Below, piece after piece: positions 5,576 through 24,614 of a stretch of 32,158 bases of DNA. Positions within the stretch are counted from its first letter, which is position 1; every line of letters starts with the position of its first letter. The stretch comes from a virus, in the IMG/VR virus record IMGVR_UViG_3300020428_000051, positions 1 through 32,158 of that record; one strand, written 5' to 3'. Under the pieces are notes generated by a model. It ran no database searches. It was given only the letters and a program-made list of their open reading frames with translations, and was not told where the DNA came from. The position numbers and the translations under genes were made by a program.

Positions 5576-5583
5576 TATTTATA
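5576..5583 (-). promoter_or_regulatory. T4-type late promoter for the 111-aa and fibre genes
   Basis: Exact TATAAATA on the minus strand followed by GTAT, 26 nt upstream of the ATG at 5550. It lies in the 49-nt divergent gap between the virion block and the plus-strand cargo island. It faces only the virion genes. Confidence 0.85.
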
Positions 5584-5599
5584 ATATGGGAGGATTAAC

Positions 5600-6340
5600 T
5601 TGAAAACCATAGTGACGCTCCTCTATGGAGACAAATATAATGCTGATGATGTTCACCGTATTTATCAAGACACAAAACAGTATAATCATGTATGTATAGT
5701 TGATGAGAAAAATGCAAAGTACCTAGATAAAAACATACACACATTGCCGGCCGGCGATGATGAAACTTTTGAAAAGATAAAAATATTCAAAAATAATTGG
5801 GTAGGGGATTGCCTTTACCTAGACCTTGATGTTATAATACAAGGGTCTATAGAAAAATTATTTTGTAAGAAACCAACGATATGTTATTGTTATTGGAAAC
5901 ACCCTGACCAAGTAACATACGGTGACCATAAATATAAGCTAGGCGAAAGATATGTAGACAATGGAAATCCTCTAGCACCTTGGACTTCAAAGTGGATTGG
6001 CATGTGGAACTCCAGTGTGATGTCTTGGAGTGGTAACAATGCTAGATATATATACGACCACTTTGAAATGAAAGACCAATTCTACATGACTAAATATGCT
6101 GGAGATGACAGGTTTTTATATCACGAAAATTTATTCAACAATGTATTCCCACGAGGTTTGATATATTCGTGGCAGTTTGGTGTTGATTTTGAAACTGATA
6201 AGTCCCCCAGAGCATACCAATGGAAACCAGATTATCCTCTGATACTTTTAAATAGTACGCATGAAACAAAAGAAGAGTTGAGACAAAAATATTATGATGC
6301 ATTTTCTTTGCATGAAATGGGGCAACAAGTACAGTCCTGA
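5600..6340 (+). CDS. GT-A-type glycosyltransferase-like protein, copy 1 of the plus-strand array
   Basis: 246 aa, starting at a TTG. The perfect Shine-Dalgarno sequence GGGAGGA at 5588-5594, 5 nt before the TTG, decides this start. The N-terminal strand MKTIVTLLYGDKYNADDVHR, then CLYLDLDVIIQG at 71-82 with a DxD motif at D75/D77, and later SSVMSWSG and YSWQFGVDFE, match the other array members. DxD normally binds the metal-nucleotide sugar in GT-A enzymes. It is the most diverged copy: it has YGDKY in place of KWGTKY and lacks the CYTDD motif. The 3' end overlaps the next gene by 47 nt in another frame. Acceptor and sugar are unknown; a transferase acting on virion or host surface glycans is inferred. 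Confidence 0.72.
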   Translation: MKTIVTLLYGDKYNADDVHRIYQDTKQYNHVCIVDEKNAKYLDKNIHTLPAGDDETFEKIKIFKNNWVGDCLYLDLDVIIQGSIEKLFCKKPTICYCYWKHPDQVTYGDHKYKLGERYVDNGNPLAPWTSKWIGMWNSSVMSWSGNNARYIYDHFEMKDQFYMTKYAGDDRFLYHENLFNNVFPRGLIYSWQFGVDFETDKSPRAYQWKPDYPLILLNSTHETKEELRQKYYDAFSLHEMGQQVQS

Positions 6341-9023
6341 TTATGTAAATAATCTATACAAGATGGTGAAAGAAAACTACAGTAAACGACACAAGTTTAT
6401 CTGTTATACTGATGACCCAGAAGGTATAGACAAGAACATAAAAATTAGAACAATTCCAAAGGTTGACTCTTTACACCCAGACTTTTGGTTTGGTAAGGAA
6501 AACTATTGTTGGGATAGGTCAAAATTTCTAGTATTAAATTCCCATCGATGGTTGAGAACCAAGGGGCCTTTCTGTTATCTTGACTTGGATGTGGTCATAC
6601 AAAATAATATTGATGACATCTTTGAACTAAGCAAAACCCCACATATGATATACACTCACTGGGAAGACCCATCTGTACTAAAAGACAGACGTTTTCAAGA
6701 TGTCCGTGGCACACTATACAACTCTAGTGTGATGTTGTGGTGTAACAATGAGGGCGAAAAAATATACAACGATGTCATTAAACACAAAGACGTTGTGTAT
6801 AAAACATTCTGGAAAGGCACAGACAATTATTATCCTTGGAGAGAATATCAAGTAGTAGGAGACAACTATTGGTCATTCTTACCAAAAGATTGGGTCTACT
6901 CTTACAACAGAGGGCAAGAGTTCCCCAATGATTTGACAGAACACCTGTACAGAGAGACAGCAAAGTTTTGTATATTCGACTCCCCCACTGGGAGACCGCA
7001 AACAAATTACAAGCCGCATGAAGTTCGTGACTATAATATCCTTGTACACTGGCATGGCAAAAATGACTTTGAACGTCTATGGATGCCCAAGTTCCCCGAC
7101 AATTTTTTTGATAAAAACAAACACACTGAGAGGATTGACACTCTAATAGAAAATGCTAATGAGTATGACTCATTCGTAAAACAAATCGAATCTAGACATA
7201 GAAAAACCATAGAGGAACTTGAGAACGATTTGATATCAATGCACAAAAAGTTCTTAGCGGACTTTCCCAAAGACCCTCTGTTGATAGAAGGCAATGAGTC
7301 TTTGTATTGGAACAAAGACATTGACGGTATCTACAATTTTTATAAAGACAGATTTGTCTATAAGATGCACAAAGTTGTTTTCAATGTACTAGTAGATAAA
7401 TTCTATACCGATTTACCAAAACTAAAACAAGATTGGGAAAAGTACAGTAACAAGTTTGATAGTATAAAAAACTGGTCTCAGTTTGATTCCATGACGGATG
7501 ATACACTAGAAAAAAACTACATCGACCAAAAAGTAATAAGCAAAATAAAATACATGGTGAACCAAAATGATTTGACATCTTTGGCTTCCCTGATGATAGA
7601 GTTGTTTCCAGAACTAGAAAAACAATTGCAAGGAAGTATATCAGAAATAAAAGAAAACATCCCAGAACTAGAAAAAGAAATATCAGACTTAACATTTATC
7701 AGACGTATAGAACCAGAACATAGAAAAACAATAAGAGAGATATATGATACTGGTGATATGATTTCTATGCACAAAAAATTTCTTGCAGATTTCCCAGAAG
7801 ATAAGATGTTACAAGATGGCGACCAAGCTTTATATTGGAATAAAAGTTTTGACGGTGTGTATGATTTCTACAAAGAAAGATATATCTCTAGACAACATAA
7901 GATTGTCTTTGACGAAGCAAAAAAATATGGGCCAGTGAGATACTTTTGGAATATAAACTACGGCAGAATTTTCGCATTGTATAGGAGACTGTGGCATAAG
8001 AACGAACTGCCACTAGTCAAAAAAGAATTCATGGAGAACGTAAAAAGATATGGCATCCAGAGATTGTTTTGGGATGCAGATAATTCTGACACACAAAAAC
8101 TGTACAAAAGATATTACATTGACAACCTAAAAGAATTGTTTTACAAACAAGATTATGAGGCCGTGTTTGAAAGATTGTATAACATCATGCCCAAGGATGA
8201 GTTGTTAAATATTTTAAAACAGGATAATATATCAGACGATGATACTCTTGTCAAATATTTTCAGATGCATGGTGAACAATACAGTGATATGTACAAGGGG
8301 TTGTATGAGGATGGTTCCCCAGATGGTGCCCTGATACAACTGAGTAGCACTACAAATGATACCGATGACCCCTACAATGACATATTCCTGACAGAATACG
8401 AACACAACTTATCATCAATCAAAAAAATATTTGATAGGTACAGGGTAAATTGGGTAACTTTAATGTGTGAGATATCTGACCCCACCAAGTCTGAACATTT
8501 TGAAAACATATGTAAGTATTTTAAAGACAACGGTGTCACTCTGACCGTTCAAACATACGATAAAACTTTTATGAAACCCAGCTGGATAGACAACATGGAG
8601 TATGTTGAACAACCAGAACTAACGGAAAATATGCCAGTAGTAAAAGAAACCATTGCTAGTGACATACCAGTGAACCTAGACACGTTGAGGATGTTCAAGA
8701 AAAGGGATGAAGTAAGAAGACCAAAACCAAAGTCAAAGGTTGCTGACCCTGTGTGGTGTGATGCGAGAAAGAGCGGATACTTCTATGTTAGTGCTGATTC
8801 GGGTGCGTATCCGTGTGCTTGGATTGCTAGGGATGTACTAGAAAACAAACTTTTACCATATCATCCCCTTGACTACGCATACAATAATCAGTATAATAAT
8901 TTGAAAAACTTCACTGTTGGTGAGGTTATATATAATAATGACTTTGAAAATATAAGTCAAAATCTGAAGAGAAGTCCTCTGTCTATTTGTAATAAGAAGT
9001 GCGGTGATTGTCATGCGAGTTAA
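6294..9023 (+). CDS. Glycosyltransferase-like / internal-repeat / SPASM-like fusion protein
   Basis: 909 aa. Residues 1-280 are a GT-A-like domain: KWGNKY at 8-13, CYTDD at 37-41, YLDLDVVIQ at 95-103 with D97xD99, and YSYNRGQEF. Residues about 300-640 are helical, with two long repeats and four copies of a W-N/D motif. Residues about 685-909 resemble the end of a radical-SAM barrel plus a SPASM-type domain: C822, C841 (SADSGAYPCAW), then CNKKCGDC at C899/C903/C906. No CX3CX2C precedes the barrel-like part, so radical-SAM chemistry is not expected. ATG 6294 or 6297 keeps the first beta strand seen in paralogues; ATG 6312 would lose it. An Fe-S or structural metal role for the cysteines is inference. 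Confidence 0.7.
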   Translation: MMHFLCMKWGNKYSPDYVNNLYKMVKENYSKRHKFICYTDDPEGIDKNIKIRTIPKVDSLHPDFWFGKENYCWDRSKFLVLNSHRWLRTKGPFCYLDLDVVIQNNIDDIFELSKTPHMIYTHWEDPSVLKDRRFQDVRGTLYNSSVMLWCNNEGEKIYNDVIKHKDVVYKTFWKGTDNYYPWREYQVVGDNYWSFLPKDWVYSYNRGQEFPNDLTEHLYRETAKFCIFDSPTGRPQTNYKPHEVRDYNILVHWHGKNDFERLWMPKFPDNFFDKNKHTERIDTLIENANEYDSFVKQIESRHRKTIEELENDLISMHKKFLADFPKDPLLIEGNESLYWNKDIDGIYNFYKDRFVYKMHKVVFNVLVDKFYTDLPKLKQDWEKYSNKFDSIKNWSQFDSMTDDTLEKNYIDQKVISKIKYMVNQNDLTSLASLMIELFPELEKQLQGSISEIKENIPELEKEISDLTFIRRIEPEHRKTIREIYDTGDMISMHKKFLADFPEDKMLQDGDQALYWNKSFDGVYDFYKERYISRQHKIVFDEAKKYGPVRYFWNINYGRIFALYRRLWHKNELPLVKKEFMENVKRYGIQRLFWDADNSDTQKLYKRYYIDNLKELFYKQDYEAVFERLYNIMPKDELLNILKQDNISDDDTLVKYFQMHGEQYSDMYKGLYEDGSPDGALIQLSSTTNDTDDPYNDIFLTEYEHNLSSIKKIFDRYRVNWVTLMCEISDPTKSEHFENICKYFKDNGVTLTVQTYDKTFMKPSWIDNMEYVEQPELTENMPVVKETIASDIPVNLDTLRMFKKRDEVRRPKPKSKVADPVWCDARKSGYFYVSADSGAYPCAWIARDVLENKLLPYHPLDYAYNNQYNNLKNFTVGEVIYNNDFENISQNLKRSPLSICNKKCGDCHAS
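7188..7383 (+). repeat. Internal repeat A1 of the 909-aa protein
   Basis: Encodes about 65 residues, opening ESRHRKTIEELENDLISMHK and including KKFLADFP, LYWNKDIDG and FYKDRF. It is matched by copy A2 about 525 nt downstream, with roughly half of the residues identical by eye. The most conserved block is ISMHKKFLADFP. Confidence 0.85.
7710..7905 (+). repeat. Internal repeat A2 of the 909-aa protein
   Basis: Second copy, opening EPEHRKTIREIYDTGDMISM, then HKKFLADFP, LYWNKSFDG and FYKERY. It aligns to A1 with one short indel. The nucleotide sequences have diverged more than the protein, so the duplication is not recent. Confidence 0.85.
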
Positions 9024-9816
9024 TGTGGTGTGCAGTAAGTGGGGAACTAAATACGGCCCGCATTTTGTTAATCGACTTTACAACATGTCGAAAAGAAATA
9101 TACCAGAGGATAAATTTGATTTTCATTTCTACTGTTATACTGACGATGATAAGGGACTTCTACCTGATATCAAAGTTATACCATTTCCAGACATCGATTC
9201 CATACATCCTAAGTATTGGTTCGGCCATGATGACTTTAAGTATGGCATGGCTAGATGTTGGGACAGACCTAAAACAATGGTCTTCAATACTCACAATTTT
9301 GCAGCAGATAAGCCGACAGGACGTTTCATCTTCTTTGATTTGGATATAATAATACAAAATGATTTGACTCCCATCATCACATACAACTTAGAACAACCCA
9401 CAAAAATGCGGTCATGGTGGCAAGACCCCAGACCCATGTTAAGTAGACAATTCAAACTAGCACACGGCGCACACACAAACGGTAGTTGTCAAGTGTGGAG
9501 TGATGACCAGTGTGAACCTATCTGGAATGACGTACTAGAACACCAAGAAAAGATATGGTTCACTTTCACAGACGGTACAGATAACTACCACTCTTGGAGA
9601 TGGAAAAAACTGTGGGATTACTTTCCAAGTTGGATGGCATATTCATACAACCGTGGAAGGTCATGGGCCGAGGATGATTTGCGTGTAGGGATTTACAGAG
9701 AAAATTGCATCATCTGTGTATTTAACGTAGACCTTTTGCCTTTTGAGGACAAGAGTAGAGGTCACACAAAACAAGATGACCTTGCTGACCCAAGGTTACT
9801 GGAGCATTGGCGATGA
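9013..9816 (+). CDS. GT-A-type glycosyltransferase-like protein, copy 3 of the array
   Basis: 267 aa from ATG 9013, with GGTGA at 9003-9007 as ribosome binding site. A GTG at 9004 in the same frame is less likely. Family motifs: VNVVCSKWGTKYGPHFVNRL at 3-22, YCYTDD at 40-45, FFDLDIIIQND at 107-117 with D109xD111, WSDDQCEPIWNDV, and AYSYNRGRSW near the C-terminus. It resembles the N-terminal domain of the 909-aa protein closely in length and motif order, including HPKYWFG against HPDFWFG. It overlaps that gene by 11 nt, and its stop overlaps the miniprotein start as ATGA. GT-A fold and DxD suggest a nucleotide-sugar transferase; the substrate is not readable. Confidence 0.75.
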   Translation: MRVNVVCSKWGTKYGPHFVNRLYNMSKRNIPEDKFDFHFYCYTDDDKGLLPDIKVIPFPDIDSIHPKYWFGHDDFKYGMARCWDRPKTMVFNTHNFAADKPTGRFIFFDLDIIIQNDLTPIITYNLEQPTKMRSWWQDPRPMLSRQFKLAHGAHTNGSCQVWSDDQCEPIWNDVLEHQEKIWFTFTDGTDNYHSWRWKKLWDYFPSWMAYSYNRGRSWAEDDLRVGIYRENCIICVFNVDLLPFEDKSRGHTKQDDLADPRLLEHWR

Positions 9817-9980
9817 CTAATTTAAAAAAGTGGTGGAGAATATGGGCAAAATCTTTGGGAGAAAAAGCTTCCGATGATTCTAATGAAGCAGATTTGGTTG
9901 CGATATTTAGAACCATCGTAGTTCTTGTTAATTTCTTTACTTGTTTCTTTATCATATCTGGGGTTTTAAGACATTGGTAA
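9813..9980 (+). CDS. 55-aa membrane miniprotein between glycosyltransferase genes
   Basis: ATG at 9813, TAA at 9978-9980. The N-terminal half is polar and basic/Trp-rich (MTNLKKWWRIWAKSLGEKAS), then DDSNEADLVA. A hydrophobic stretch follows, about residues 29-52 (from LVAIFRTIVVLVNFF through CFFIISGVL), ending RHW. A single-pass membrane or membrane-surface protein is likely, with the basic/Trp segment on one side. It fills the gap between two glycosyltransferase genes exactly: its ATG overlaps the upstream stop (ATGA), and its stop overlaps the TTG start of the next gene (TTGGTAA). That fit supports a real gene despite its size. It could anchor the transferases at the membrane, but this is inference. 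I have a vague memory of similar small proteins in marine T4-like phages. Confidence 0.72.
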   Translation: MTNLKKWWRIWAKSLGEKASDDSNEADLVAIFRTIVVLVNFFTCFFIISGVLRHW

Positions 9981-10651
9981 ATATATACACCGTAAAGTGG
10001 GGAACAAAATACAACCACAAACATGTCCAACAAATCTATGAATCATGTTTGGAAAACTTGACCGTAGACTTTACATTTCACTGTCTAACTGATGATGCAA
10101 CCGACATATCTTCGGACATAAAAATCATATCTTTGCCAGGCGGAAACAAACTAGAGAAGTGGTGGAACAAGATGTATTTGTTCAATGATGATATTGTAAC
10201 CCAAAAGGGCGAAAAGATGTTCTTTGATTTGGATGTCATCATACAAAAAAATGTAGATGTGATTGCTAACTATGACCCAGAAGATAATCTGTGTCTAGTA
10301 AAAACTTGGTGGCATGATTTAGAAACACAATACAAAGAGACAAGACACATACCTCATAAATTTACTGACCTCAATTCGTCAGTGTTGAGGTGGAATGATG
10401 ACCTAAATACTAGAGAGCTTACAGAATATTTTAATAAATATCAAAAACAAATATTATGGTATTATCGTGGCCTCGACAATTTCTTTTACAATAGAAGAGT
10501 TATCAAAACAAAACTGTTCCCACTTGGATGGGTTTACAGTTTCAATCAAGGGTTTGTTTTTCCGCATGACATAGAAAAACACACCTATAGAGAACTACCA
10601 TACGTTTGTATTTTTGATTCAATGGGAAAAGGTGAAGATGTTAAATTTTAA
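9974..10651 (+). CDS. GT-A-type glycosyltransferase-like protein, copy 4 of the array
   Basis: 225 aa from a TTG at 9974 that overlaps the miniprotein stop. Earlier in-frame starts at and after 9941 would add residues unlike the paralogues, whereas LVNIYTVKWGTKYNHKHVQQ aligns at once with the other copies. Motifs: HCLTDD at 36-41, FFDLDVIIQKN at 83-93 with D85xD87, LNSSVLRWNDD, and VYSFNQGFVFP near the C-terminus. It is shorter than copy 3, mainly from loss of the HPKYWFG-type insertion. The start relies on coupling: the only upstream purine run is GGGG within ATCTGGGGTTTT. A nucleotide-sugar transferase of unknown substrate. Confidence 0.72.
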   Translation: MVNIYTVKWGTKYNHKHVQQIYESCLENLTVDFTFHCLTDDATDISSDIKIISLPGGNKLEKWWNKMYLFNDDIVTQKGEKMFFDLDVIIQKNVDVIANYDPEDNLCLVKTWWHDLETQYKETRHIPHKFTDLNSSVLRWNDDLNTRELTEYFNKYQKQILWYYRGLDNFFYNRRVIKTKLFPLGWVYSFNQGFVFPHDIEKHTYRELPYVCIFDSMGKGEDVKF

Positions 10652-11321
10652 TTTTTTAAATAATTTTAAGCACTGGGGCGAAGCACTACATGTTATCGAA
10701 AACAAGATGCCTCATAAACTTGCAGACTTCCGAAAGTCTATGGAAGAAAATAACATGGAGGCAAGTATCTGGTGCGTAGAGGAAACGAAAAAATATATTG
10801 AAGAGTATTACACCAAAACAGGTTCCCTGAGAGTGCTGATATTGAACTCGTGGTTGGGTGTTCCCCTAGTTCCGCTACTGTGTGAAAACATGGATGTGGC
10901 TCAAATTCACATGGTGGATATCGATGAAGAGTCTATTGAACTCTCTAAGATTTTCCATAAACATTATGCACAAGAAAAGTTCGTAAACATTCGACACTGG
11001 AATCTGGATGTCCCATTTGAGTTTGAGAATCTAAACAAAATTGACGTAGACCTTGTTATCTGTCTCTGTACAGAACAACTGTATCCTCTGGCAGAACTCA
11101 ACGGCAAGAATCCACAGGCGATATACGCCATTCAAAACTCAAATGTAGTAGAAGAAATGTTTGGTATCAACTGTGTTGGTAGTATTGAAGACTTAAAGAA
11201 ACAAGTCAACATAGAAGAATGTGGATACGAGGGAATCAAGAAACAAACATATTATTCTTGGGACGGCAAAAAGGAATATGATAGATTTATGATTATAGGA
11301 CAAAGAGAAGGATTCTTCTAG
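10638..11321 (+). CDS. Class I methyltransferase-like protein with an atypical motif I
   Basis: 227 aa. ATG 10638 is chosen over an in-frame TTG at 10614 because AAAGGTGA lies just upstream of the ATG. Residues 64-81 (LRVLILNSWLGVPLVPLL) sit where SAM-dependent enzymes have motif I, but the loop reads NSWLG in place of DxGxG. IHMVDIDEESIELSKIF at 90-106 is a typical motif II-like strand with the ribose-binding acidic residue (D94 or D96). WNLDV at 121-125 and VDLVICLC at 137-144 fit later strands. Fold assignment is moderate; activity is uncertain given the altered loop. It overlaps the preceding transferase by 14 nt and ends at a CTAG shared with the convergent gene. Confidence 0.55.
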   Translation: MLNFNFLNNFKHWGEALHVIENKMPHKLADFRKSMEENNMEASIWCVEETKKYIEEYYTKTGSLRVLILNSWLGVPLVPLLCENMDVAQIHMVDIDEESIELSKIFHKHYAQEKFVNIRHWNLDVPFEFENLNKIDVDLVICLCTEQLYPLAELNGKNPQAIYAIQNSNVVEEMFGINCVGSIEDLKKQVNIEECGYEGIKKQTYYSWDGKKEYDRFMIIGQREGFF

Positions 11322-11935
11322 GGTGCAAAGACTACGTTGCCTGATGCTGTAATTCTACACTCATTAGAAGTATAGAATGGATACACTATGTGCGGCAATT
11401 TAGCATCAAACAAAACCATCTTACCAATAAAACTCTCATCAACATCTAAAGTTATTTCTTCTGGGCCGGCAAGAGGTTCATTAAATACAAATCCAAGTCT
11501 AGAAGTTTTCTTATCTGGTGTGTCTGGAAAAACTTTATCTTCTTCGGATAAGTCGTATGGTATCTGAATGAATACCACAAAAGAAAACAATCCTCCATGT
11601 CTATGGAGAGGATTGAATTCATGTTTCTTCATATGATTCACCCATGTTGTTTCAAGTTTGATGGGTGGTATGGGATTTAAAGTATCTTTGTATTTACTAA
11701 CGTACTCTGTGACTTCTGGTTTCTTAAAGTTTTTCATTAAGTCATCACGAATGGTGACAGGCAAATTCTCTATTTTTATTTGTTTCTGAAGATGTCCAGC
11801 TAGATTCTCGTTGTTGGATAAAGTTCCAACATAATCTTTGTAGAAGTTTACAGTATCCCAACTGACTTCGCCAGACCAGATACCATCATACTTCTGCAAT
11901 TGTTCTTCTGCCATAAACCAGTTTATTGAGAACAT
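11318..11935 (-). CDS. 2OG-Fe(II) oxygenase-like protein
   Basis: 205 aa. The start at 11935 is chosen because GGAGG lies 4 nt before this ATG; an in-frame ATG at 11959 would lack one. Residues 108-126 (NPLHRHGGLFSFVVFIQIP) and 171-200 (GKMVLFDAKLPHIVYPF through RITASGN) match the double-stranded beta-helix oxygenase family common in marine phages (2OG-FeII_Oxy_5 type). Probable iron ligands are H111 or H113 and H182; R194 would bind 2-oxoglutarate. Here the usual HxD is HxH. Substrate is unknown; hydroxylation of a protein, sugar or nucleotide is possible. It overlaps the upstream oxygenase-like gene by 13 nt and ends tail-to-tail with the methyltransferase-like gene. Confidence 0.72.
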   Translation of the reverse strand: MFSINWFMAEEQLQKYDGIWSGEVSWDTVNFYKDYVGTLSNNENLAGHLQKQIKIENLPVTIRDDLMKNFKKPEVTEYVSKYKDTLNPIPPIKLETTWVNHMKKHEFNPLHRHGGLFSFVVFIQIPYDLSEEDKVFPDTPDKKTSRLGFVFNEPLAGPEEITLDVDESFIGKMVLFDAKLPHIVYPFYTSNECRITASGNVVFAP

Positions 11936-12534
11936 ATATCCTCCACCATCATTTCCCACATCGCCTGATTCGGAGTCACGAATCCAATAGTTTCTCTCAC
12001 TCCCCTACTTCCAGCACAATGCCAATACGGATTGTCTGGCCCACCATAGTATCCAACTTTAGCTTGCCATCCAATATCATCATCAATTGTTTTTACTTTG
12101 CCATGTTCTAGATATCGGAAAAATCCCTGACCATCACTCCTAGTCAAAAGTATATTATAGCCTGGACAGTCCCAATTATTATGCCAAGACATAAATCCTC
12201 CAACTGGATACAAAACATGAACAGCTGTATACTTTGTGCCCAACCAATCGCCAAGTTCAGTTGACAACTCTAAAGATTTCGTTCTCAATTCGTCTGGTAT
12301 ACCATGAGTATTATGAAAGTCTGTTACCTTTGCATACTCTGGCGGGCCTTTGTGATTACTATCGTTGTACATCACAGAATGTAAATAGTCATCCCCACAA
12401 TAGTAATCTATATCGTGTTCGCCATGTCTTCTCTCATCTGTAACTAAAGAACCATAGTTCTGATTATCAAACCAATCAGTCCAATTATCCAACATACTAA
12501 TGAGCTCTGGATTTATTTTATCTATCGTTTGCAT
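11923..12534 (-). CDS. Second 2OG-Fe(II) oxygenase-like protein
   Basis: 203 aa from ATG 12534; an upstream in-frame ATG at 12609 would overlap the glycosyltransferase by 88 nt. The 13-nt overlap given by 12534 equals that of the next gene pair. Residues 114-131 (FMSWHNNWDCPGYNILLT) and 171-186 (WHCAGSRGVRETIGFV) look like the two halves of a cupin/double-stranded beta-helix iron site. H118 and H172 are likely ligands and R180 the 2-oxoglutarate anchor. The acidic ligand is not obvious (N120 or D122). It is not closely similar to the neighbouring oxygenase, so this is not a recent duplication. The family resembles phage oxygenases with WHxNxNAPGYN-type motifs, recalled from memory. Confidence 0.6.
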   Translation of the reverse strand: MQTIDKINPELISMLDNWTDWFDNQNYGSLVTDERRHGEHDIDYYCGDDYLHSVMYNDSNHKGPPEYAKVTDFHNTHGIPDELRTKSLELSTELGDWLGTKYTAVHVLYPVGGFMSWHNNWDCPGYNILLTRSDGQGFFRYLEHGKVKTIDDDIGWQAKVGYYGGPDNPYWHCAGSRGVRETIGFVTPNQAMWEMMVEDICSQ

Positions 12535-13214
12535 TTTATCGTATAGTGTGTTATAATAACATCCTGTCCATCCAACTCTTCTGGTTTTTGACCCAAACAA
12601 AAATTCCATCTAGCATCTGGACTTGGGAAGTCACCAACCTTGATGGTATCTTTATACTTCGTTTTGTTCAATAGATACCACATAGTGAATGTGTCCCAAG
12701 GTCTCACCCTTTCCGAATACGGAGATGGGTCATAACTGTCTGAAATTTGATATTGATACTGGTCAAACCAATCATCGAATAAGTCTTGAGTTTTTGACTT
12801 ACGATAAACAAAAACGCCACAATGATATATCATTTCTTCTGTATCGTTTAGTTTTGTTATCTTTGCATTGTAGGGACGATTGCGAGTGAAGATAATATCG
12901 TTGTCATTAAGGTAATCAAATGCGGTTGATATATCTTCATGTTGAATATAGGTGTCACAATCCAGATACATTGTTTTTTCATATGGAGAACGTGATAGAG
13001 CCCACAACTTAGTTCTTATGTGGTTTGGGCCATACGTTGCAATGTTTTCAAAGATTTCATAATCTTCTTTCTCTACCCATTCTGGTATGGTAAATAAAGT
13101 TATTCTTGCATCTGGATAAAATTCTTTGAGAGATATTGCTGAGGTTTTTGCAGCTTCATAGTATTCTTTTTTTACTGTGGCTACATAAAGATACCCACTA
13201 TCCAATATGTTCAT
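12522..13214 (-). CDS. GT-A glycosyltransferase, minus-strand copy
   Basis: 230 aa. N-terminal SGYLYVATVKKEYYEAAKTS starts a nucleotide-diphospho-sugar transferase fold. KLWALSRSPYEKTMYLDCDT at 69-88 carries the DxD (D85xD87), followed by YIQHED. GVFVYRKS and a C-terminal VIITHYTIKCKR complete a GT8-like layout. It shares only the general fold and YLDxDxYIQ pattern with the plus-strand array and lacks KWGTKY and CYTDD, so it is a separate lineage. Its ATG overlaps the upstream gene by 17 nt and its stop overlaps the next gene by 13 nt. It is probably expressed from the sigma70-type promoter at 13681-13710. Substrate unknown. Confidence 0.78.
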   Translation of the reverse strand: MNILDSGYLYVATVKKEYYEAAKTSAISLKEFYPDARITLFTIPEWVEKEDYEIFENIATYGPNHIRTKLWALSRSPYEKTMYLDCDTYIQHEDISTAFDYLNDNDIIFTRNRPYNAKITKLNDTEEMIYHCGVFVYRKSKTQDLFDDWFDQYQYQISDSYDPSPYSERVRPWDTFTMWYLLNKTKYKDTIKVGDFPSPDARWNFCLGQKPEELDGQDVIITHYTIKCKR

Positions 13215-13650
13215 TTGGATTAAATTCTTCTTGCAATATCATAGTCGAATAGGCCTGAACCTCTATGGGGGTTTTAGCTTTGCGAATACATTTTTTCAAT
13301 TCTTTGTTCTTAGAATTTTTTATTAATTCGATTTCAAAAGCTTCCAACTTCATTTCAAACAAGGTCTCTTGTTTCACTCTGTTGATGTGAACTTCTCTTG
13401 CCTCTTCTGCTTTCTTTTGGTTCTCTTCACCTTCTTTATCAAAGAGTTCAGTATTCTGATCAATCTCTTCTTCGGAGTAGAGTTCTAAAAGAGCATCATA
13501 GTCTTTATTGATTAGTCCCTCTGATGGATTGCCAACATTGATGTTGCATTGGTGGTATTTGTCGTTGACTAAAATCTCGCACCAAATACGGCGGTTCTCT
13601 TTGTCAACCCATCTGGGATTTTTATATTTGGGTAAGGTTTCTTCGCTCAT
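13198..13650 (-). CDS. Conserved-type small acidic phage protein, possibly fibre-associated
   Basis: 150 aa. An N-terminal Trp/Cys-containing segment (PKYKNPRWVDKENRRIWCEI) is followed by an acidic, strongly helical region (about 70-130) rich in Glu and Lys. The pattern PRWxDxENxxIxCE is familiar to me from small genes following tail-fibre genes in marine T4-like phages, and the position just after two fibre genes suggests a fibre-assembly or chaperone role. That is inference, not a domain match. GAGGA lies 7 nt before the ATG, and a perfect sigma70-type promoter lies about 30-60 nt upstream. It is the first gene of a coupled four-gene run that continues to the oxygenases. Confidence 0.55.
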   Translation of the reverse strand: MSEETLPKYKNPRWVDKENRRIWCEILVNDKYHQCNINVGNPSEGLINKDYDALLELYSEEEIDQNTELFDKEGEENQKKAEEAREVHINRVKQETLFEMKLEAFEIELIKNSKNKELKKCIRKAKTPIEVQAYSTMILQEEFNPNEHIG

Positions 13651-13680
13651 AATATATCCTCATAATTATTGCATAGGTCT

Positions 13681-13710
13681 ATTATAACCTACTTCACTGT
13701 CAAATGTCAA
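13681..13710 (-). promoter_or_regulatory. Consensus sigma70-type (early) promoter
   Basis: On the minus strand, TTGACA (13710-13705), an 18-nt spacer and TATAAT (13686-13681), both hexamers matching the consensus in every base. A second TTGACA overlaps the spacer (13703-13698). The start point would fall near 13675, giving a leader of about 25 nt with GAGGA before the 13650 ATG. It lies just after the stop of the 325-aa fibre gene and is the only consensus host-type promoter I found. Confidence 0.82.
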
Positions 13711-13713
13711 GGT

Positions 13714-14691
13714 TTAAACTGTTCTGATAAACAACTGTTTTGTCTCTTGAGTAGAACTTGATGACTGAATAGTATTACCAGCATAGTATCCAGTATATGT
13801 TCCAGAATAAGAACCAGTGTAGTTAGCGTTCAAGAATCCAGCAAAGAATCTTGAGTAACTACCAGAGTATGAACCAGTGTAATCTCCAGAATAGTTTACA
13901 CTAGCAACGTCTTTCAACTGGTCAGTCATTGTTGCGCCCATCTGAACCCATGTTCCAGCAGCACTGGGAGCACCAGTTTGTAACAAGTATTTTCCAACAC
14001 CACCAGCCATAATTCGATTTCTAAAAGCTGGTAACAGTGTTTGGATATTGGCAGCAGTCATCTCTGTGATACTACCAGTGTCAGTATCAACTTTTAAGAG
14101 AAGGTCTTCATTGGTTCCAGCATCAGTAGTAGGAGCAGTTTTTTGCCAAAGGTAATAATTTACATCTGTTCCATCTACCTGTGTTTCCGCGATGGTATAT
14201 CTAGATGTCCATGTTCCACCAGAGGGTGAAGAAGTTTCTATTTTATATTGACCTACAGTATTCGCGTCTTCAGCACACATTGCGGTTATACAAAGGTCAA
14301 GAACTTCCGTATCAACTTCTGTATCTGTCCCCTGTTCTACAGCTTCGCCCGTCCACCTGAGAGGATTTATTTGTCCACTCTCAGAAGCAGTGGCACTTAT
14401 CTGATTAAATCGATGAACTGTGTCAGTCGTTGTCTGTGTAACTGGGTGTTGACCCACAGTTTGATCGCTTTCTCTGTTAGTAAAAGTTCCAATTTCATCA
14501 CTACCAGCAGAACCACCTTGAACCACATTTAGTTCAGCAGTTCCAGAACCATCGGTGTTATCTGCAAAATGCTTAGTGATTACACCAGCAACTTGGTTTT
14601 TGATTTCAGCTGATGTCAGCTCAATGAAACCTTCCAAACCATCCGCAGCTGCTGGATACGCACCAGCTTTAAGTGTAATTGGCCCTGCCAT
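13714..14691 (-). CDS. Tail-fibre-type protein with Gly-Tyr repeat tip
   Basis: 325 aa. Residues 1-60 (MAGPITLKAGAYPAAADGLE, then LTSAEIKNQVAGVITKHFAD) look like a fibre attachment region. The middle is a beta-rich shaft with Gly/Thr/Asp. Residues 266-306 form a low-complexity run of YSG, YTG and GSYSGxYTG units, followed by a short Ser/Gln-rich end. Such Gly-Tyr tips are common in the distal fibres of marine T4-like phages and are candidates for receptor contact. It starts 9 nt after the previous fibre gene, and no TATAAATA lies immediately upstream, so it is probably expressed from the 15636 promoter. It might be a short- or long-fibre subunit; which one is unclear. Confidence 0.7.
   Translation of the reverse strand: MAGPITLKAGAYPAAADGLEGFIELTSAEIKNQVAGVITKHFADNTDGSGTAELNVVQGGSAGSDEIGTFTNRESDQTVGQHPVTQTTTDTVHRFNQISATASESGQINPLRWTGEAVEQGTDTEVDTEVLDLCITAMCAEDANTVGQYKIETSSPSGGTWTSRYTIAETQVDGTDVNYYLWQKTAPTTDAGTNEDLLLKVDTDTGSITEMTAANIQTLLPAFRNRIMAGGVGKYLLQTGAPSAAGTWVQMGATMTDQLKDVASVNYSGDYTGSYSGSYSRFFAGFLNANYTGSYSGTYTGYYAGNTIQSSSSTQETKQLFIRTV
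13774..13896 (-). repeat. YSG/YTG repeat tract in the fibre protein
   Basis: Codes for residues 266-306, with tripeptide-like units SGD, YTG, SYSG, NYTG, SYSG, TYTG, YYAG. The units are interrupted by RFFAGFLNA. Codon use varies between units, so the repeat is kept at protein level rather than as a recent DNA expansion. Confidence 0.85.
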
Positions 14692-15561: not shown

Positions 15562-15807
15562 TTATTTCTCTTGTTGTAAAGAATTCATTACTTGCATCAA
15601 GACATTTTTGAGTTCAGTCATATCTTCCTTTAGACTATTTATATCAGCTGACATTTTGTCTATTTGATTATTTCTAGATGAGAGAAGAGCTTTTCTTCTT
15701 TTGTACGCAAGAAGTCCACCTCCATCTACAGATACGACAGCTGATTGGTTTTTCTGGTCTCTCTGCCACTCTAGTGACGATACATGTAATTTACTATTTT
15801 CTGACAT
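15562..15807 (-). CDS. 81-aa virion-associated coiled-coil protein
   Basis: The N-terminal half contains SSLEWQRDQKNQSAVVSVDG followed by GGLLAYKRRKALLSSR. The C-terminal third (IDKMSADINSLKEDMTELKN onward) shows heptad spacing and is a likely coiled coil. Small proteins with an AYKxRK motif before a coiled coil occur in this place in marine T4-like phages, from memory. A structural or oligomerising role is inferred. It begins 5 nt after the giant DUF4815 gene, and a late promoter for the next gene is embedded in its coding sequence. Confidence 0.6.
   Translation of the reverse strand: MSENSKLHVSSLEWQRDQKNQSAVVSVDGGGLLAYKRRKALLSSRNNQIDKMSADINSLKEDMTELKNVLMQVMNSLQQEK
15636..15643 (-). promoter_or_regulatory. 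T4-type late promoter inside the 81-aa gene
   Basis: Exact TATAAATA on the minus strand followed by GTCT, about 90 nt upstream of the 15546 ATG. It would start transcripts for the two fibre genes. Because it lies in coding sequence it could be chance, but it shares the downstream G with the other sites. Confidence 0.65.
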
Positions 15808-23012: not shown

Positions 23013-24614
23013 CTAAAAAGTAAAAATCAACTTTACTGTTTCTACCTGATCCGAATCTCTCGTTATTGGTTTTCTATTATCATAGTAAAGTAATTCCCCA
23101 CTATGAGCATTAAATTCTGGATTTGTAAGGCTATTTATAGTCAATCCAGTTATGTCCTTTGTGGTATTTGTTAAAGTATCTGTTGAAGCTATATCCGAAT
23201 CCACTTCCTGTAAGTAAATCGAATCTATAGTTCCATTGCCAGTGGTGTCTCTTTTTTGAGTAACCCGATAAGTTCCGTTTGACGATGTAGTTATAGTATC
23301 ATCGGTGTCATATGATGCCGGTGATAGTGTTCCAATTACATGGTCACCCGAACCAGTGGCTTCATTAAATAAATCAGTTGAATTATATTTTGTTATATTT
23401 TTTAACAATCCAACTTGTCTATAATCATTTCCAGTTAGCAAGTCTCTAGAATCATTATCAAAAGATGTAGTTATACCCACCCTATGAGCAAATAATTCTT
23501 GTTGTACATTGGCACCATGTCCACTATAGGGGGCAATGATTGCTCGAAAAGCAGCATTACTTCCAGAACCAGTAGTTTGTTGAATGGATACCGTGGCTTT
23601 GGTGTAACCAGAGCCTGGCGTTGTTACTGTTATTGCAGTGACGTTTCCATTTGAATTGACTGTCAAGGAAGCACCAGCACCAGTTCCATCTCCTGTTATT
23701 ACAACACTGGCGTCCCCAGATGTATAATCGGCCCCCATGTTAGTTATAACAATATTATCTATAGCACCACCAACAGCGGTGCTTTCAACTGAAGTTTGTA
23801 ATGTTGCGGTCTCCGTACTTCCCAAAACCGCATCAGCAGTAGCAGCAGTAGAAAATCCTCCGCCGGTGAGTCTAATATCTGCAAAGGAGTAACCAGAACC
23901 AGCGGCCGTAATAGTTATTGCGGTGACGGCACCAGCAGCGATAGTTGCAGTCGCAGTAGCACCTGTGCCATCTCCCAATATTGAAACAGTGGGGGCACTA
24001 GTATATCCAGCGCCACCTGTCAAAACCGTTCCACTATCAATTTCACCATTAACATCGAACGCTGGGTCACCAGCACCAGAACTTACTCTAACTGGCATAT
24101 AACTATCTGATAAAAATTTTGTTCTATCAGCAGCACCCACTTGGAATAAAAACTTCCATTTATATCCATCACTGGTTTCAAAAATTTCTGTACCAGTGCT
24201 AGTAGGTTTTATCGTGCTTTGTGCATTACTATTATTGTTGATGCACTTGTAAACATTAAATCCGTCAGTTAAGACATAAAAGTTAGCGGTAGACAGCTTA
24301 GTAGCACCAGAGTTAGAGGTATTAGTTGCAGACAAGGAATCATCATACTTGTCATAAACTGTTCCACTCGCCCAATCAATCCTACGAGCAAGCATGGCTA
24401 CGTCTGCGTTCTGAACCTTCTTTACAAAAAGAATGTCCCTTCTGAACTCAGACGTAAACACACGATTGTCGTATGACGTATCTGGTGCGGTATCGTCAGT
24501 CCAAGTTTGAGTTCTAGAGGCCGCCAAGAAAAATCTATCATTATCGTTATAGATATCTCTGTAAAACGACCTCGCTTGTTGAACTCTGGCTTGGTCTCTT
24601 AAAAGAATTGCCAT
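23013..24614 (-). CDS. 8: Baseplate wedge protein gp8 with beta-repeat insertion
   Basis: 533 aa against 334 aa for T4 gp8. Residues 1-175 follow the gp8 pattern: [54 protein letters not shown], and [12 protein letters not shown] with YMPV at 172-175. T4 gp8 shows the matching DGYVWEYLFEI. Residues about 196-355 hold four GxGY/GADY beta repeats ([70 protein letters not shown]), which explain the extra length. Residues after 360 return to the gp8 core. AGGAG lies 6 nt before the ATG but is within a hairpin. Position between the gp7-like gene and the DUF4815 gene agrees with T4 order. Confidence 0.88.
23132..23139 (-). promoter_or_regulatory. T4-type late promoter inside the gp8 3' end
   Basis: Exact TATAAATA on the minus strand followed by GCCT, 129 nt before the ATG of the 2396-aa gene. 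It would give that gene its own late transcript in addition to read-through from gp8. Confidence 0.7.

Follow-up and report, generated by a model that had tools for sequence, protein, structure and literature searches.

This locus raises the question of how a block of genes inside the tail-fibre region of a marine phage comes to be headed by a host-type promoter, and when that block would be transcribed. The DNA analyzed (the window) is 32,158 nucleotides long and comprises positions 1 to 32,158 of a single 32-kb virus record, IMG/VR record IMGVR_UViG_3300020428_000051. The virus is a T4-like marine myovirus whose baseplate wedge protein comes closest to those of Methylophilales and Pelagibacter phages and of phage C48C1 (32-37 % identity). 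When the junction region was searched against cultured phages, no match was found at the DNA level, and C48C1 was the sole match in the protein search.

The promoter lies on the minus strand and consists of a -35 hexamer TTGACA (13705-13710), an 18-bp spacer and a -10 hexamer TATAAT (13681-13686). Both hexamers are exact consensus (12 of 12 positions), and the spacer falls within the 16-18 bp taken as typical of sigma70. As the earlier note had described, this perfect site at 13681-13710 is placed between a fibre gene and a 150-aa gene; the gap from the fibre stop codon (13714) to the ATG of the 150-aa gene (13650) is only 63 bp. The minus-strand order is the fibre end, 3 bp, TTGACA, the 18-bp spacer, TATAAT, AGACCTATGCAATAATTATGAGGATATATT and the ATG at 13650.

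When spacers of 15-19 bp were allowed, this was the single perfect match in the window. In 100 dinucleotide shuffles of the window the mean number of perfect matches was 0.10, and 10 of the 100 shuffles contained at least one. Relaxed promoter-like matches (at least 9 of 12) numbered 54 against 49.0 +/- 7.2 expected, which is background; thus, weight was given only to the perfect match, to where it lies and to how it is conserved. A chance match without function could be argued from the ten shuffles, but the site falls in a 63-bp gap and is conserved across diverged lineages. That conservation already refutes chance, to which we give next to no credence.

The suggestion that a second TTGACA in the spacer might tune the site did not hold up. 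TTTGACA is present in the window's spacer, but it reads TTCGACA in the closest relative and is absent elsewhere. It was also rejected as a functional box, because it lies too near the -10 and several relatives, L002 among them, have lost it.

The gene upstream of the promoter (13714-14691, minus strand) encodes a fibre-like protein of 325 aa with Y/G/S/T-rich repeats, whose C-terminal ...TQETKQLFIRTV is conserved in relatives. Downstream lie four minus-strand genes with overlapping ends. The first (13198-13650) is the 150-aa gene, which always adjoins the fibre gene. Its product has no family match and no fold match (best viral E-value 0.11; best PDB E-value 0.21), and its local structure model is confident (mean pLDDT 87.6). 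Its position and the appearance of its N-terminus prompted the idea of a tail-fibre chaperone, but in the viral fold search a 'tail assembly chaperone' came only at rank 12 (E-value 0.49). The second gene (12522-13214; 230 aa) is a GT8-like glycosyltransferase with a sub-threshold match to Glyco_transf_8 (E-value 0.006), and is syntenic in all lineages. The third (11923-12609; 228 aa), called oxygenase-like in the earlier note, has syntenic homologues and no family match. The fourth (11318-11959; 213 aa) is a 2OG-Fe(II) oxygenase (phrog_81, E-value 5e-21; Pfam PF13759). C48C1 carries the same order, with a fibre-like gene, homologues of the 150-aa, transferase and 228-aa genes, and an L-shaped fibre assembly gene.

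Relatives were fetched by protein homology (queries: 150-aa protein, fibre C-terminus, transferase), and the promoter played no part in the fetching. Extracting the stretch that separates the fibre end from the 150-aa gene in every relative gave 24 distinct junction sequences. In 17 of the 24, TTGACA is kept together with a -10 (TATAAT, TACAAT, TATAGT or TATTAT) at a spacing of 17-18 bp, in a count where members of one lineage are not independent. In another six (L029, L058, L059, L062, L067 and L072) the sigma70 promoter is replaced by the late promoter TATAAATA. The remaining junction, L003, has a terminator-like hairpin and neither promoter. Judged from these sequences, the junction promoter is real, conserved and of host type.

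The same promoter class was found elsewhere in the relatives: a record has 1-18 perfect sigma70 promoters, compared with 0-1 matches to the reversed pattern. Among the genes immediately downstream of these promoters are gp32, DNA primase, an exonuclease, gp55 and DNA polymerase, as well as a porphyrin-biosynthesis family gene and UDP-glucose dehydrogenase. In the annotated C48C1 genome, perfect promoters precede gp55, SbcD and the clamp, and others stand just before polymerase and methyltransferase genes. This association with early or middle genes comes from the relatives only, the window being a fragment that holds no early genes. One perfect promoter is an exception, as it precedes a tail-tube gene. 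Since relatives carry this class ahead of their replication genes, the junction promoter is best read as one used early or in the middle phase by host RNA polymerase, with sequence fitting either time equally. This reading agrees with what is described for T4-like cyanophages, which lack the T4 polymerase modifiers and in which unmodified host polymerase is thought to transcribe the early genes (review, PMC2984593); host-polymerase early transcription in T4-like marine phages is also described in PMC9004378. The promoters before the relatives' replication genes resemble the early promoters of S-PM2, Syn9 and Melnitz in having TTGACA/TATAAT at 17-18 bp (PMC2984593, PMC9004378). Unlike those, the junction promoter lies inside a tail-fibre region and has its -10 in a hairpin loop.

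Two features of this promoter class were observed in passing. In L095 and L100 (the records behind L028 and L023), the tail-tube gene is preceded by TTGACATTTGTTATAAATAGCAGTATAAT, in which TATAAATA occupies part of a perfect sigma70 promoter's spacer, possibly forming a dual early/late promoter. Among the perfect promoters of relatives (L081-L132), the third and fourth positions after the -35 are often TG (TTGACANNTG; T in 27 of 56, G in 29 of 56), a trend that might be a phage-specific -35 extension.

The hairpin mentioned above, which the earlier note missed, is an inverted repeat, TAGGT-TATAATAG-ACCTA, that encloses the window's -10 and leaves it in the loop. The 5' arm (13687-13691, minus strand) pairs with the 3' arm (13674-13678, minus strand). 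In L002 the stem is TGGGT..ACCCA, so that two of the few differences from the window junction compensate each other. Other lineages have unrelated arms that also pair around the -10: GGTAGGAT..GTCCTACC followed by AATTTTTT in L016, ATGAGTGT..GCACTCAT followed by AGTATTTTTT in L034, GGGAGTATA..TATACTCCC in L044 and GGGTAGGT..ACCTACCC in L022. Two junctions, L039 and L040, keep the sigma70 promoter without a hairpin. With compensatory changes, the arms pair in register at 84 of 84 positions against 53.6 with shuffled 3' arms, in registers that were taken from the best stems and therefore favour pairing. In a permutation control using the same arms from five lineage representatives, full pairing was obtained in only one of 120 arm assignments, the true one.

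When 67 perfect promoters were compared, the 12 junction promoters had the 12 strongest hairpins (shuffle frequencies 0.004-0.038; at least 0.07 for the others). Hairpin nesting thus sets the junction promoter apart from its relatives' other promoters. The idea of a nested hairpin as a general feature of promoters in these phages was dropped, as it is marked only at the junction (12 of 67).

The form of the hairpin differs among lineages. In a terminator scan, the junctions of L034, L016, L003 and L062 were called as terminators. The scan called none at the window junction, whose short stem has no T tract after it. The window's fold is also not unusually stable (z -0.60); the case for the hairpin is comparative. 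In the window the hairpin probably terminates weakly or is a relic.

Two other explanations of the inverted repeat were considered. Its dyad centre is the promoter -10, as would be expected of a DNA operator where a repressor or host regulator covers the -10. However, the arms are wholly different between lineages while pairing is kept, which is unlike a protein site, and several stems are followed by T tracts and located where a terminator is expected; we therefore regard an operator as very improbable. The hairpin could instead be a 3'-end stabilizer or processing site of the fibre message that overlaps the promoter merely because the gap is small. L003 has a strong hairpin with no sigma70 -10, and hairpins also occur in late-promoter lineages, both in keeping with this idea. 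Against it, the -10 is in or at the loop every time in the sigma70 lineages despite their differing arms, and we consider this explanation unlikely.

We favour the reading that a genuine sigma70 promoter (early and/or middle, used by host RNA polymerase) heads the four-gene operon with its -10 inside the loop of an RNA hairpin, at a probability of about 0.66. Activity, timing, start site and termination are inferred from sequence as the best explanation of these data. In several relatives, the hairpin has the form of an intrinsic terminator that would act on the late message of the fibre gene upstream. The sigma70 promoter would start transcription at about 13674, 7 nt after the -10, which is the end of the 3' arm and past the 5' arm. 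Since this predicted start is beyond the 5' arm, the promoter's own transcripts could not form the hairpin and would escape termination, whereas a polymerase arriving from the fibre gene would make RNA with both arms, in which the hairpin would form. In the T-tract lineages the same bases would stop upstream polymerases and start new ones. In all members examined, the leader predicted from the sigma70 start is short, with only weak structure. In the case of the TATAAATA versions, the predicted start is inside the 5' arm. Thus, one 60-base stretch may end one message and start the next.

A wider proposal is that the junction is a conserved self-escaping switch, in which the terminator loop is the -10 of the next promoter and the sigma70 and late classes are swapped repeatedly while the hairpin stays and the operon is retimed. 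We put this forward tentatively, as an idea with somewhat less than even odds. A related arrangement is found in gene e and I-TevI of T4, in which RNAs that start locally do not have the 5' arm of an inhibitory hairpin (PMC3014915). The likeness is that a local start, predicted in the present case, drops the 5' arm of a hairpin that read-through RNA forms. In the T4 genes the promoter is late and the hairpin hides the ribosome binding site (PMC3014915), whereas the junction has a sigma70 promoter, a Shine-Dalgarno GAGG (13661-13658, minus strand) free of the hairpin stem, and a terminator form in relatives. No natural phage precedent for an overlapping terminator and promoter was found among the literature titles listed, whose limited coverage makes this weak evidence.

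The window has six copies of TATAAATA against 2.3 expected, all on the minus strand. Four are within about 60 bp of a gene start, the one at 15636 is at about 90 bp, and the one at 23132 is inside a gene. Strong strand bias of TATAAATA was also seen in related records (e.g. 26:3, 3:26 and 30:4). The T4-type late promoter NATAAATA, from which cyanophage late genes are read (PMC2984593), is found at the same junction in six related sequences and at four close-by spots in the window, but is absent from the window's own junction; neither TATAAATA nor NATAAATA occurs in the 63-bp gap. The nearest upstream late promoter, a TATAAATA at 15636-15643 (minus strand), is the likely source of late read-through. 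The terminator scan of the window found no terminator-like site between 15643-15636 and 13650, so late read-through into the block is expected, and the short stem without a T tract likewise makes some read-through from 15643 likely. An exclusively early expression of the block is thus not supported.

These data bear on the alternative that the operon is dual or mainly late, with the sigma70 promoter adding early or middle expression whose timing has no host-directed meaning. Such a model is what is proposed for cyanophage 'middle' genes, where both promoter types overlap (PMC2984593). It gains from the terminator-free path between 15643-15636 and the block, from the six junctions where TATAAATA stands in place of the sigma70 box over the same genes, from CATAAATA overlapping the -35 in L010, L011, L014 and L016, and from the relatives' tail-tube promoter with TATAAATA in its sigma70 spacer. 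It is weakened by the window's gap, which has no late box, and by the T-tract hairpins of several lineages, which would block read-through. We judge this alternative unlikely, though it is the strongest of those considered.

The swap of promoter class was placed on a tree of the 150-aa protein, a single short protein whose inner branches are weak. The sigma70 label needs four changes, of which well-supported branches force three (two for the late label). L029, which has the late promoter, is placed in a clade of sigma70 members, but on a long branch. The operon and most of the convergent plus-strand glycosyltransferase genes are syntenic in sigma70 and late-promoter lineages alike, so the block is a stable component of the fibre region rather than special cargo linked to this promoter. 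A late promoter over the same syntenic genes in six junctions indicates that timing is evolutionarily switchable and leaves a host-directed role unproved.

The earlier note had proposed that the cargo half is read early by unmodified host polymerase and that its products act on the host or precede assembly. The host-type, conserved promoter and the position of its class before gp32, primase, gp55, polymerase and clamp in relatives favour the first proposal. Its scope has to be narrowed, as the promoter faces only the four minus-strand genes (13650-11318) and not the plus-strand glycosyltransferase genes (5600-11321). The second proposal does not follow, given the six late-promoter junctions over the same block and the constant place of the 150-aa gene beside the fibre gene.

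In pelagimyophages, host recognition clusters mix fibres with GT8 transferases that are proposed to alter host surface sugars, and middle or late promoters could not be assigned (PMC7029224). The window is similar in having tail fibres and GT8-type glycosyltransferases in the structural region. It differs from that study (PMC7029224) in that a conserved promoter heads part of the block. A change of host surface sugars would go with early expression, and a modification of fibre proteins with the synteny. If they are expressed early, the transferase and oxygenases could act on fibre proteins or, for superinfection exclusion, alter the surface of the host before it lyses. Because sigma70 and late promoters are swapped naturally before the same genes, these two roles are testable. 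The junction may serve as a sequence-level marker of host-recognition genes escaping the late programme in marine T4-like phages, and the nested terminator-promoter would be a small, easily tested regulatory part. In our view, the nesting of promoter and hairpin at one junction, together with the natural swapping of promoter class, is the more interesting finding.

Several minor observations were made on the plus-strand genes. At 5576-5586 (TATTTATAAT), the minus-strand TATAAATA of a tail-fibre assembly gene overlaps a plus-strand TATAAT; the latter stands just before the glycosyltransferase operon at 5600 and has no good -35. The 909-aa protein encoded at 6294-9023 (plus strand) has no Pfam match above the cut-off. 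Stretches of it are glycosyltransferase-like and related to the neighbouring proteins, and its C-terminus is Cys-rich (CNKKCGDCHAS). At 11318-11321 the minus- and plus-strand operons converge, their stop codons overlapping; the small gap has no evident terminator, and this convergence could yield antisense RNA.
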